A stretch of 64,000 nucleotides of DNA from Alphaproteobacteria bacterium (lineage in GTDB: Bacteria > Pseudomonadota > Alphaproteobacteria > TMED109), in NCBI GenBank assembly GCA_022825235.1, contig JAJDYI010000035.1:62001-126000 (forward strand). The letters run 5' to 3'. The notes below the pieces were generated by a model. That model was not told where the DNA came from and did not search any database. It worked only from the letters and a program-made list of their open reading frames with translations. Of this stretch, positions 27,642 to 31,612 are shown one piece after another. The position numbers were made by a program, and so were the translations under genes. The stretch's first letter is position 1. Every line of letters starts with the position of its first letter.

Positions 27642-28520
27642 CTAGGCGCTGTCCCAGGGCAGTGATCGATCGAAAGCCGCCACGCGCTCGTAACTGTTCT
27701 CGAACTCCGGCAAATCGTCGATCTCCAGCTCCATCGTGTTCCAATCCCTGCCTGCCCTGTTCTTAATCTCCGTATTGTCGAGAGACCGGTGGTTCGGCTC
27801 GAGACGGCGTGCGGAACACTTCTTCAGGAGCGATTCCAGAATATCCGCTGGAGCATTGCCGTCCGCAGGAATGCCAGGCAGGAGCAAGTCGAGGTCGTAG
27901 ACATCCTGGCGTCGATAACGATTACGGGGAATCTGCTGGAGCAGGGCACGGTACTTCTCGGCCACGAGATCGATGACTCCGTAGGCGTAGAGTTCCTGCC
28001 CGCCTGTCAATTCCAGAACCTGCACTTGGTTCAACGGCTCGTTGAACGAGATGTCGACGTCGATCACGGTGGAGGCGGTCCCTTCGTTCAGAGCCCTCTC
28101 CTCGTTCGTGCCGCGGCGCGCGTAGGCGATCTTGAGCTTCACGGCGGCAAATTCGGCGTCCGGGAAAATGTGGTTGGGGCGGCCTTTCGCGGACTGCGTG
28201 CGGAGAACAAGGTCCGCATAGCCGAGACGGGCCGCGGTGCGGGGGAAGGCGGAATTCAGCAATGTCCCGATTTTGTCGCCGATGTCGCCATCGATGGCGA
28301 ACGCGGCGGTCAGGTCGATGTCCGTGGTCTGCCTGGGGCTGCCATAGGCAAGCCCCAGCAGAATTCCGCCCTTCAGGAAGAGTTTGGTGCTGAGCGGCCC
28401 GGCCATGGCGATGGCGTTGAGGATGATCTCCACCGCTTGGCGCTGCCGGTGTGCGACGGGATCCTGCGCGGCGCGGGCAACCCAGGAGGCGACGTCGACC
28501 GGGTGCGGACGCTCAGACAT
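27642..28520 (-). CDS. abiEii: AbiEii-type nucleotidyltransferase toxin
   Basis: 292 residues. The nucleotidyltransferase core reads LFLKGGILLGLAYGSPRQ then TTDIDL, matching the AbiEii motif with K50, G51-G52, R63, D67 and D69 in place. A later basic/acidic helix motif is VAEKYRALLQQIPRNRYRRQ followed by DVYDLDLLL. Type IV toxins of this family add nucleotides to tRNA or another target and cause reversible growth arrest or abortive phage infection. Its start overlaps the antitoxin 3' end by 8 bp. All visible catalytic residues are intact. Confidence 0.92.
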   Translation of the reverse strand: MSERPHPVDVASWVARAAQDPVAHRQRQAVEIILNAIAMAGPLSTKLFLKGGILLGLAYGSPRQTTDIDLTAAFAIDGDIGDKIGTLLNSAFPRTAARLGYADLVLRTQSAKGRPNHIFPDAEFAAVKLKIAYARRGTNEERALNEGTASTVIDVDISFNEPLNQVQVLELTGGQELYAYGVIDLVAEKYRALLQQIPRNRYRRQDVYDLDLLLPGIPADGNAPADILESLLKKCSARRLEPNHRSLDNTEIKNRAGRDWNTMELEIDDLPEFENSYERVAAFDRSLPWDSA

Positions 28521-29421
28521 TCAGTGAGATCATCCAGGTTTCCGAAAAAACCGGGGCGAAGTCACGGGTGGGATCCAGTTTTCGGCTGCCTCCCCGTTGT
28601 CCGAATGCCTTCCAGCGTTCGATGCATGGATGTTGGAGGCGCAGACGCTCTTCGAGTATGTAGCCGGCCCTGCTCTTGATAAGCGCCTTGGATGTCTGGT
28701 CTATGGTCGAGGCGATTTCGTCGAGAAAGGTAGGAGCATGTTCCTCCCAGACATCCAGGACATGGGACATGCCGCCGCATAAATCGGGCCTCTGAAGCAT
28801 GTCGAGAAAGGTCTGCCCCACCGTCGACAGTCGAACGTCGGTTCCACGGTTGGTCATGAACGCGCCGGCCGTCTTGCTCTCGTACATGGTGACGTCGCGA
28901 CGCCTGACCCGATGGGGGTGTCGCACCAGCGTGAGCGGGTACGGATTGTCTTCTGCCTCGTTCATCGCCTCGTCCATGTGGTCACGAAGAGCGGCAGCGG
29001 CGGTCTTGCGATCCGGGCGTGTAAGCGCCAGAGCGCGAGGGGTTCGATCAGTAAGCCCCCAGCGTTGCATAGCAGACAGGTGGGAGACGTAGCAGGTTGG
29101 GTCGACCAGGCAGGCAATATTCTCGGCTGGCAGATCAGGAACGGACAGCACGCGAACGACACGGGAGCCGTAGTCCCGATCGCCGGTGATCGCGCCGGCG
29201 CTCTTCAGAATCGACCGGAAACGGGCGATATCGTCACGGTCGGGGGTCTCCCGGCGCAGATACAGCTTCCTGCCGGCCGACTCCCGGTACATTGCCAGCG
29301 CAATCCGGAAAAACTCGAACTGCGAGAGGACAGGCTTGTCGTTGGCTTCTAACCGGTCAGCCAAATGGGCCGCCGCCCGGGTGAGCTTTGGCCCGTAAGT
29401 TCGTTGCGGCGCCAATTCCAC
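28513..29421 (-). CDS. abiEi: AbiEi-type antitoxin / operon regulator
   Basis: 302 residues from a GTG at 29421. An N-terminal winged-helix region (LADRLEANDKPVLSQFEFFR) is followed by the AbiEi domain with VDPTCYVSHLSAMQRWGLTD and a C-terminal segment (VGQTFLDMLQRPDLCGGMSH). AbiEi both neutralises AbiEii (type IV, without direct toxin binding) and represses the operon through inverted repeats. Only three bases separate the GTG from a perfect 47-bp palindrome, and there is no ordinary Shine-Dalgarno. A TTG at 29415 has AGG nine bases upstream and is an alternative start. Confidence 0.85.
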   Translation of the reverse strand: MELAPQRTYGPKLTRAAAHLADRLEANDKPVLSQFEFFRIALAMYRESAGRKLYLRRETPDRDDIARFRSILKSAGAITGDRDYGSRVVRVLSVPDLPAENIACLVDPTCYVSHLSAMQRWGLTDRTPRALALTRPDRKTAAAALRDHMDEAMNEAEDNPYPLTLVRHPHRVRRRDVTMYESKTAGAFMTNRGTDVRLSTVGQTFLDMLQRPDLCGGMSHVLDVWEEHAPTFLDEIASTIDQTSKALIKSRAGYILEERLRLQHPCIERWKAFGQRGGSRKLDPTRDFAPVFSETWMISLNV

Positions 29422-29424
29422 TAA

Positions 29425-29471
29425 CCTAGATCTTGTACATGCGTCCTAAGGACGCATGTACAAGATCTAGG
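29425..29471. repeat. perfect 47-bp palindrome A, at the abiE start
   Basis: Arms 29425-29447 and 29449-29471 are exact reverse complements (23 bp each) around one A at 29448. The core is CGTCCTAAGGACG. It is 3 bases from the abiEi start codon, so an operator role is likely, but its length and perfection also allow a strong hairpin or cruciform. Confidence 0.95.
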
Positions 29472-29624
29472 GGTCCATGTCAAGTCGAACTGTTCGGAAT
29501 TCTGGTTTGCACCCCAGTCGAGGGCTGCTTCCAAGCGTGAGGGCTGGGACGCGCCGACGGTCCTGATGAGTTTGAGCGCGGGATGTCGCCCCGGCGCCAA
29601 CGCAGCCCACTTGATCTATGTAGA
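29472..29624 (-). pseudogene. possible coding relic between the palindromes
   Basis: On the minus strand about 50 codons stay open from 29615 down past 29474, reading IKWAALAPGRHPALKLIRTV, then GASQPSRLEAALDWGANQ, then NSEQFDLTWTP. The composition is protein-like, with no start codon and a TAG just upstream of the Ile. It may be the C-terminal remnant of a lost gene. The family is not recognised, and the fragment is too short to be sure. Confidence 0.25.
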
Positions 29625-29671
29625 AGGACTACAGCTATATACGTCCTAAGGACGTATATAGCTGTAGTCCT
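29625..29671. repeat. perfect 47-bp palindrome B
   Basis: Arms 29625-29647 and 29649-29671 are exact reverse complements (23 bp each) around A 29648. The centre lies exactly 200 bp from that of palindrome A. Both share the core CGTCCTAAGGACG, while the outer arm bases mostly differ, each set with full internal pairing. No gene start lies beside this copy. Confidence 0.95.
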
Positions 29672-30144
29672 CTGTTGTCAAGCTTAAACGCGACACGGGA
29701 TCGCAGTGAGCTGCGATCCCTCGAATCCATCCTTCCGGCAATTCCATCTCCCTTGATCGCCTTTCCCGGGCGGCCCGAAAAACGCCCCATCGCGCGCCCT
29801 GGAGGGCCGTGAGCGGCTCTTCCTGCTCTACCCGGTCGGCGGCAAGGCCGTTCCCGGCGCGGGTCCGCTCCGGTTGCATCTGACGGCCCCGGATGAGGCC
29901 AGAATGCCAGGCAGCCCCGACATCGCGGCTCGGGTACGGCACCGCGGCCGAACTTGCGCCAGCCCCAGGCGCGATTCCGGCACGCCCAGGCTGGTGGGTA
30001 TGCTTTGGCCGTGCACGAAGCCACGCTCGGCTATGACCCGTACTCCGACATCACGATCTTGTGCGGCACGCCGATCCCTTCGGTCGACGACCTAATCGCG
30101 ACCACCGACGAAGCCTCCACCTCATCGCCCATCGGAGAGGACCT
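29672..30144. other. 473-bp region without a supported gene
   Basis: Contains a perfect hairpin at 29697-29720 (GGGATCGCAG, loop TGAG, CTGCGATCCC). Several ORFs cross the rest on both strands, but none has a family-like pattern, a good ribosome site and a sensible length together. The end holds the GGAGAGG site for the SRPBCC gene. It may be gene debris. Confidence 0.45.
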
Positions 30145-30880: not shown

Positions 30881-31612
30881 TCACAGACCAGTGCGGCGAT
30901 CCTTGATGATTCTGCCCCCAACGTGACAGGCCTCGGGCATCTCGCGCAGCTGCACGCAGCCGGTGAGGTCGAGGTCTCCGTCCACGCGCAGTCCGCGCGG
31001 AAGCGCAGTCAATCCGGAACAACCGGTCAGATCCAGGTCGTTCTGCACATGGAGACCGTCGGGAAGTTCAGCCAGTCTCCTGCAGTTGTTCAGATACAGG
31101 CCACGACCCACCGAAAGGGTCGCCGGCAGCGACCAGAGGCTCGTGCAGTGGGTAAGGTCCAGATTGCCGCCCACGACCAGGTCGGCAGGGAGGAACTCGA
31201 GCCCTGTGCAGCGGGTCAGGTTGAGGTGGCGCACGGTCCGCAGCCCGGCCGGAAGCTCGACGAGCCGGGCACAGTGAGCCATGCTGAGGCTGCGCTTGAC
31301 CTGGAAGGCGGCGGGTAGCGAAGCCAGCCCCAAGCAATACGACACATTGATATTGCCGCCGACGTTCAGGTCCCGTGTCAGGGCCTTCAACCCGGTGCAG
31401 CCGGTCAGGTCCAGGTAGCCGCCCACCTGCAGGCCGGCCGGCAGCTCCGAGAGTCCCGCACAGCTGTTCAGGTGCAGGCTTCCCGCGACGTCGAGGTTGG
31501 CCGGGAGCGACACCAGGTCCACGCACCCCACCAGGTTGAGGTTTCCATCGACGCGCAAGCCGGGTGGAGCGGTGCCCTCCAGTATGGCGGCCCGGGCGGC
31601 GTTCGAATTCAT
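30881..31612 (-). CDS. leucine-rich-repeat protein of ten 21-residue repeats
   Basis: 243 residues, ATG 31612 with AGGAAGAG upstream. After a 15-residue lead, residues 16-225 are ten 21-residue units of the form P-x-x-L-x-V-x-G-x-L-x-L-x-x-C-x-x-L-x-x-L (for example PAGLQVGGYLDLTGC then TGLKAL), and 226-243 is a partial unit. The cysteine at unit position 15 (C30, C51, C72 and so on to C219) is in every full unit. The pattern is the LRR consensus LxxLxLxxC with the LPxxL link seen in YopM/IpaH-type LRRs. There is no signal peptide or effector domain, so it is probably a cytoplasmic binding protein. The partner is unknown. Confidence 0.7.
   Translation of the reverse strand: MNSNAARAAILEGTAPPGLRVDGNLNLVGCVDLVSLPANLDVAGSLHLNSCAGLSELPAGLQVGGYLDLTGCTGLKALTRDLNVGGNINVSYCLGLASLPAAFQVKRSLSMAHCARLVELPAGLRTVRHLNLTRCTGLEFLPADLVVGGNLDLTHCTSLWSLPATLSVGRGLYLNNCRRLAELPDGLHVQNDLDLTGCSGLTALPRGLRVDGDLDLTGCVQLREMPEACHVGGRIIKDRRTGL

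Follow-up and report, generated by a model that had tools for sequence, protein, structure and literature searches.

The closest described systems are the abiE operon of S. agalactiae and Rv2827c of M. tuberculosis. S. agalactiae AbiEi and M. tuberculosis Rv2827c both repress their own operon, and autoregulation by AbiEi through 23-bp inverted repeats has been published (PMC3985639, PMC7319586). The known sites (IR1/IR2 in S. agalactiae) are imperfect repeats with a conserved arm sequence (TGTTGCTTTTA...) and spacers of N3 or N13. Here we describe an abiE locus in a 64,000-nucleotide stretch of an alphaproteobacterial contig (hereafter, the window), together with its relatives. The locus resembles the two known systems in operon layout, in AbiEi fold, and in having 23-bp half-sites over what is probably an autorepressor promoter. 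It differs in the repeats themselves: S. agalactiae has a single pair, whereas the family represented in the window usually has two full palindromes, with perfect arms of free sequence and an inner TCCTNAGGA core. Our literature search, which was thin on subscription papers, found no earlier description of such abiE promoters. It likewise found no paper pairing "type IV toxin-antitoxin" with "perfect palindrome," and the core string retrieved unrelated papers only.

The window operon has the two-gene layout of AbiE type IV toxin-antitoxin systems, AbiEi followed by a DUF1814/AbiEii nucleotidyltransferase. The antitoxin/repressor gene abiEi occupies positions 28513 to 29421 on the minus strand (302 aa, possibly a few codons shorter at the start) and overlaps by 8 bp the nucleotidyltransferase toxin gene abiEii, at 27642 to 28520 on the same strand (292 aa; Pfam PF08843, E=2.7e-24). 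Both proteins match PADLOC models (AbiEi, E=2.6e-100; AbiEii, E=1.6e-97). A search of the PDB by sequence gave no match to the window AbiEi. Its AlphaFold model, built with 47 homologues in the alignment, has a pLDDT of 92.5, and the best PDB fold matches are AbiEi 6y8q (E=6e-5) and Rv2827c 1zel (E=1.3e-4), at TM of about 0.5. The model and its fold matches indicate an N-terminal DNA-binding domain plus an antitoxin domain. On its genes and predicted fold, the operon belongs to the AbiE system. Further along the window, at 30881-31612 on the minus strand, is a gene for a leucine-rich-repeat protein with 63-bp DNA repeats, which has weak similarity, far below cutoff, to type III effector models of plant-associated bacteria.

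Upstream of abiEi lie two palindromes. The proximal one, copy A, spans 29425 to 29471 (centre 29448; arms 29425-29447 and 29449-29471), and the distal one, copy B, spans 29625 to 29671 (centre 29648; arms 29625-29647 and 29649-29671). The sequence-only reading had described two perfect 47-bp palindromes with 23-bp arms and a shared core, and this proved exact on re-check: in each copy the 23-nt arms are 100% complementary around 1 nt at the centre, and both copies contain the shared core CGTCCTAAGGACG. The innermost part, TCCTNAGGA, at 29444-29452 in copy A and 29644-29652 in copy B, is near-invariant in 152 palindromes of the family and is the putative AbiEi recognition core. Both strands form very stable DNA hairpins (copy A, -25.1 kcal/mol, z about -13 to -15; copy B, -23.7 kcal/mol, z about -11 to -13). 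Outside the abiEi upstream regions, the related loci (559 kb) hold 84 CCTNAGG sites with arms of at most 6 bp, with one exception (L028). Since single-strand folds reach z = -11 to -15 and background arms are this short, a chance origin is negligible. The window's own genome carries no copy beyond A and B, and none away from abiE. The two copies start 200 bp apart, as had been reported from the sequence, and this figure holds for the window but is not conserved: the distance is 198-203 bp in relatives with 88-89% AbiEi identity and 84-129 bp in most others. With relatives ranging from 84 to 203 bp, an exact 200-bp spacing was ruled out as meaningful.

The palindromes recur with abiE well beyond the window. 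The initial set was 11 AbiEi homologues, encoded on plasmids or in related genomes; each has one or two such palindromes before abiEi. A genome-wide scan added 80 loci. In all, upstream DNA was usable at 89 related abiEi loci; one or two long-armed palindromes are present in 87 of these, as well as in 17/17 further plasmid loci. Among 299 genomes drawn evenly from the window's phylum, all three strong AbiEi matches have palindromes, and six weak matches to other, distant AbiEi families have none. The family now comprises about 150 copies from several phyla, and some loci carry a single palindrome only. The linkage to abiEi suggested from one locus is thus borne out. Homologous abiEi loci lacking the palindromes had been named as the observation that should count against an AbiEi operator; with 87 of 89 loci carrying them, that idea was not overturned.

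Several loci depart from the common arrangement. Of the two exceptions among the 89, L043 has no palindrome and L044 has a remnant with 10-bp arms, and both could serve as natural controls. L028 has a second perfect palindrome downstream of abiEii (L028:4913; 25-bp arms, same core), so that the operon is flanked on both sides. At L060, L062 and L063 the proximal position is taken by a second type of palindrome, with the centre ATATACTC...GAGTATAT, and the TCCTNAGGA copy lies 34-42 bp away. In L085, a perfect palindrome with 25-bp arms has ACGTCAGAGACGT at its centre in place of the core, and a TATATACGTCC motif is inverted within its outer arm. L122 belongs to a distant AbiEi relative of another subfamily and has a perfect palindrome with 12-bp arms (TACTGGAGTATATATACTCCAGTA) within its 3.5-kb locus. 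On a Xanthomonas plasmid (L108), abiEi is annotated as two separate pieces and is apparently broken; compared with L106, its distal palindrome has a fresh one-arm change at position 21, a possible sign (n=1) of decay after repressor loss. The viral collection yielded no abiEi relative. One IMG/VR phage contig (L100:5490) has a palindrome with 19-bp arms and the core ATATGTCCTTAGGACATAT, flanked by phage structural genes, and the stretch read there holds no abiE gene. This palindrome is the sole copy found without an abiE gene, and could be a chance hairpin or a decoy or target for AbiEi.

The position of the palindromes suggests that they coincide with promoters. Copy A had been noted to touch the abiEi start, and it does lie 4 bp from the GTG of the longest abiEi reading frame. 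Copy B was said to have no gene start beside it, but its context also resembles a start, with a TTGACA 33 bp before its centre. This -35 box (29676-29681, minus strand) and that of the proximal promoter (29478-29483, minus strand, 35 bp before the centre) are both perfect 6/6 matches directed at abiEi. Probable -10 elements follow: for the proximal promoter TACATG (29455-29460, minus strand), a weak match at 17-bp spacing inside the inner arm, and for the distal promoter TATATACG (29653-29660, minus strand), assigned from the sequence together with the family logo, which has T-A-T-A at -12..-7. Across the family, 46 of 71 proximal copies have a TTGACA (at least 5 of 6) that starts 32-36 bp ahead of the centre; on the opposite strand the figure is 6/71, and at shifted positions it is 1-8/71. 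A stringent promoter scan called no site at the palindromes; the promoter is inferred from this family-wide geometry. A TTGACA 32-36 bp before the centre places the -10 box in the inner arm and the expected transcription start close to the centre, so that the left outer arm would be promoter spacer and the right arm the first transcribed sequence. Arms of 22-23 bp with TTGACA at -33/-35 thus resemble the published arrangement of 23-bp inverted half-sites over an abiE promoter. At about 21 loci, the -35 box of the distal copy fits the opposite strand better, as if a divergent transcript led away from abiE.

To describe the anatomy of the palindromes, we aligned the 152 copies and counted positions outward from the centre. 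The TCCTNAGGA core is almost invariant, position 5 is mostly G, and positions 7-12 are TATA-rich. The outer arms, at positions 11-22, are near random (entropy about 1.8-2.0 bits). Pairing between the arms is 97-100% through position 19, then falls to 92, 88, 78 and 59% at positions 20-23 and to about 30% from position 24, which marks a sharp edge at 22-23, also the mode of arm length. Only 21 of 2888 pairs at positions 1-19 are mismatched; if equilibrium holds, correction would have to outpace mutation by a factor of a few hundred. Outer-arm identity is 0.345 between the two copies in one locus vs 0.278 between loci, and only the core and inner arm are common to the sites of one promoter region. 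Because the outer arms differ between a single repressor's own two sites, the protein cannot be reading the arm letters, which leaves two possible sources for the symmetry: the forming of a hairpin, or a mechanism by which one arm is copied onto its partner.

The tempo of change helps to separate these two sources. We used a close-pair set of 18 independent pairs (30 palindromes) and a fixed-span count. Among 179 base pairs at positions 13-18, 31 had changed on both arms and none on one arm alone; what few one-sided changes there are fall at positions 19-20, near the arm ends. Outer arms changed at 0.173 per pair; the flanks changed at 0.164 per site and fourfold degenerate sites at 0.182, which puts the arm/fourfold ratio at 0.95, with a wide interval (0.51-1.41). 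In Xanthomonas, the arms changed more slowly than the flanks. The inner arms (positions 5-12) were changed at 6/240. The centre base was changed in 16 of 30 palindromes, about three times faster than the flanks (p=4e-6 vs the flank rate). Half of these changes (8/16) are A-T swaps, where 24% of inversion type would be expected (p=0.023; small sample). Loci L111 and L112 have no differences at 123 fourfold sites, yet their centres are A vs T; L130 and L106 have common arms and an A/T difference at both centres. Slow passage through harmful mismatches would make the arms lag neutral DNA, whereas if one arm is copied onto the other without bias, the rate is exactly neutral. The arms are identical apart from 21 of 2888 pairs and change on both sides together (31 vs 0), as in homogenised repeats. 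Altogether, the neutral-rate paired changes and the hot, apparently inversion-biased centre point to a homogenising DNA process, as far as comparison of sequences can tell. Replacement of multi-base patches, which some template switches typically leave, was considered and rejected, as changed positions are unclustered (15 adjacent pairs vs 14 expected); this counts somewhat against template switching.

We therefore favor, with a probability of roughly 0.6, the reading that the palindromes are an AbiEi autoregulatory operator recognized by its core, with arms that co-evolve through copying at the DNA level. The palindromes would be the promoter/operators of the abiE type IV toxin-antitoxin operon. 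AbiEi repressor would bind the two-fold core TCCTNAGGA across the transcription start and so repress its own operon, and the 12-14 bp beyond the core and -10 box would not be read as sequence. Instead, one arm would serve as template for the other, yielding exact mirror images. The process is most likely template switching during replication at a hairpin-forming site, perhaps aided by a fork block that the bound repressor or RNA polymerase creates. Any one-arm mutation would be copied across or erased, so that both arms drift together at the neutral rate, with frequent inversion of the centre base. The near-constant arm length of 22-23 bp goes beyond what homogenisation alone gives, so some selection or length rule must act. 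Selection probably holds the length: it may be set by the repressor footprint, the published AbiEi half-site also being 23 bp, or by a selected hairpin or cruciform capacity.

In yeast, template switching homogenises the arms of inverted repeats and inverts spacers even of already perfect repeats (PMC8604942). Quasipalindromes are sites of template switching in E. coli (PMC7202029), and DNA-protein crosslinks stimulate it (PMC6357072). These E. coli hotspots and the yeast homogenisation likewise predict perfect arms, two-sided changes and spacer inversion, but they concern laboratory reporters or scattered short repeats, whereas the abiE palindromes are one regulatory element with a fixed core and length in several phyla. 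Coding palindromes in Nematomorpha mitochondria (PMC6649704) are similar in their perfect arms, few imperfect repeats and suspected repeat conversion. They differ in being scattered, coding and of very different lengths; the abiE palindromes occupy one position in a bacterial promoter, with arms of about 22-23 bp. Template-switch upkeep of RNA stems (PMC8794818) shares the one-step two-sided changes, but in that case rRNA and other RNA genes are involved and pairing is functional in the RNA, unlike in abiE promoters.

The alternative that survives best, though we consider it unlikely, is a selected DNA hairpin or cruciform maintained by compensatory mutation, in which extrusion pulls the -10 box from the duplex and so acts as a promoter switch, or the hairpin itself is what AbiEi binds. 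This would account for arms that are free in sequence, perfectly paired and near-constant at 22-23 bp, for the very stable hairpins on both strands, and for the presence of the structure in both copies when only one adjoins the gene. Compensatory change should, however, be slower than neutral, and the outer arms keep pace with neutral sites and show no one-sided changes at positions 13-18; the hot centre, with its apparent A-T bias, is also unexplained. Selection on two-fold symmetry or on a hairpin, as suggested earlier, is probably not the main cause of the perfect arms, given the free outer arms, the neutral rate and the lack of a G-T excess among mismatches. In a tentative variant, which we hold to be about as improbable, AbiEi reads the extruded hairpin or cruciform by its TCCTNAGGA tip and stem length rather than a sequence in the duplex, stalls forks and so drives arm copying. 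If this were true, the operator would be defined by shape and continually rebuilt, and it might sense supercoiling, single-stranded DNA or the junction nucleases of phages.

It is more doubtful still that the palindromes are plain AbiEi operators, in which whole 23-bp half-sites are read as sequence with a specificity particular to each locus. Known AbiEi sites are 23-bp half-sites (PMC3985639, PMC7319586) and the core is nearly invariant, but the outer arms within a locus differ almost as much as those of unrelated loci, their entropy is near 2 bits, and symmetry of arbitrary letters cannot be sensed by a sequence-reading protein. The AbiEi operator proposed from the sequence alone as the leading idea is itself well supported: linkage to abiEi, promoter position, the fold match to AbiEi repressors and published autoregulation all speak for it.

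An RNA hairpin in the abiE leader, transcribed from the distal promoter and controlling translation or RNA stability, is highly improbable. A transcript starting at the distal promoter would let the proximal palindrome fold in full, and there are weak, sub-threshold Rfam matches to miRNA-like hairpins. However, the 33 mismatches at positions 1-20 include 6 GT/TG vs 7 AC/CA, and without a G-T excess a sense-RNA hairpin is not what is kept; no wobble-tolerant covariation on the sense strand, as in a structured RNA leader, was found. In addition, the likely start at the centre means that each promoter transcribes one arm of its own palindrome, the distal copy is equally perfect, and single-palindrome loci exist. 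Finally, mobile-element ends or target sites, also raised from the sequence, are close to negligible as an explanation and found no support: many relatives lie on plasmids near recombinase genes and L028 has a palindrome on either side of the operon, but both window copies are on one side of the operon, as is usual in relatives (84-129 bp apart, on the -35 box), the window's own genome has none away from abiE, the viral collection has no abiEi relative, and the sole abiE-less copy found is that on one phage contig (L100).

For the AbiE family, the palindrome is a nearly diagnostic DNA signature of one large subfamily. Two-sided change of paired bases is normally taken as proof of structural selection; here it occurs at the neutral rate, so copying itself can yield such change. 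The abiE palindromes provide a natural, replicated case in which the upkeep of perfect palindromes, a long-standing question, becomes directly testable in bacteria.
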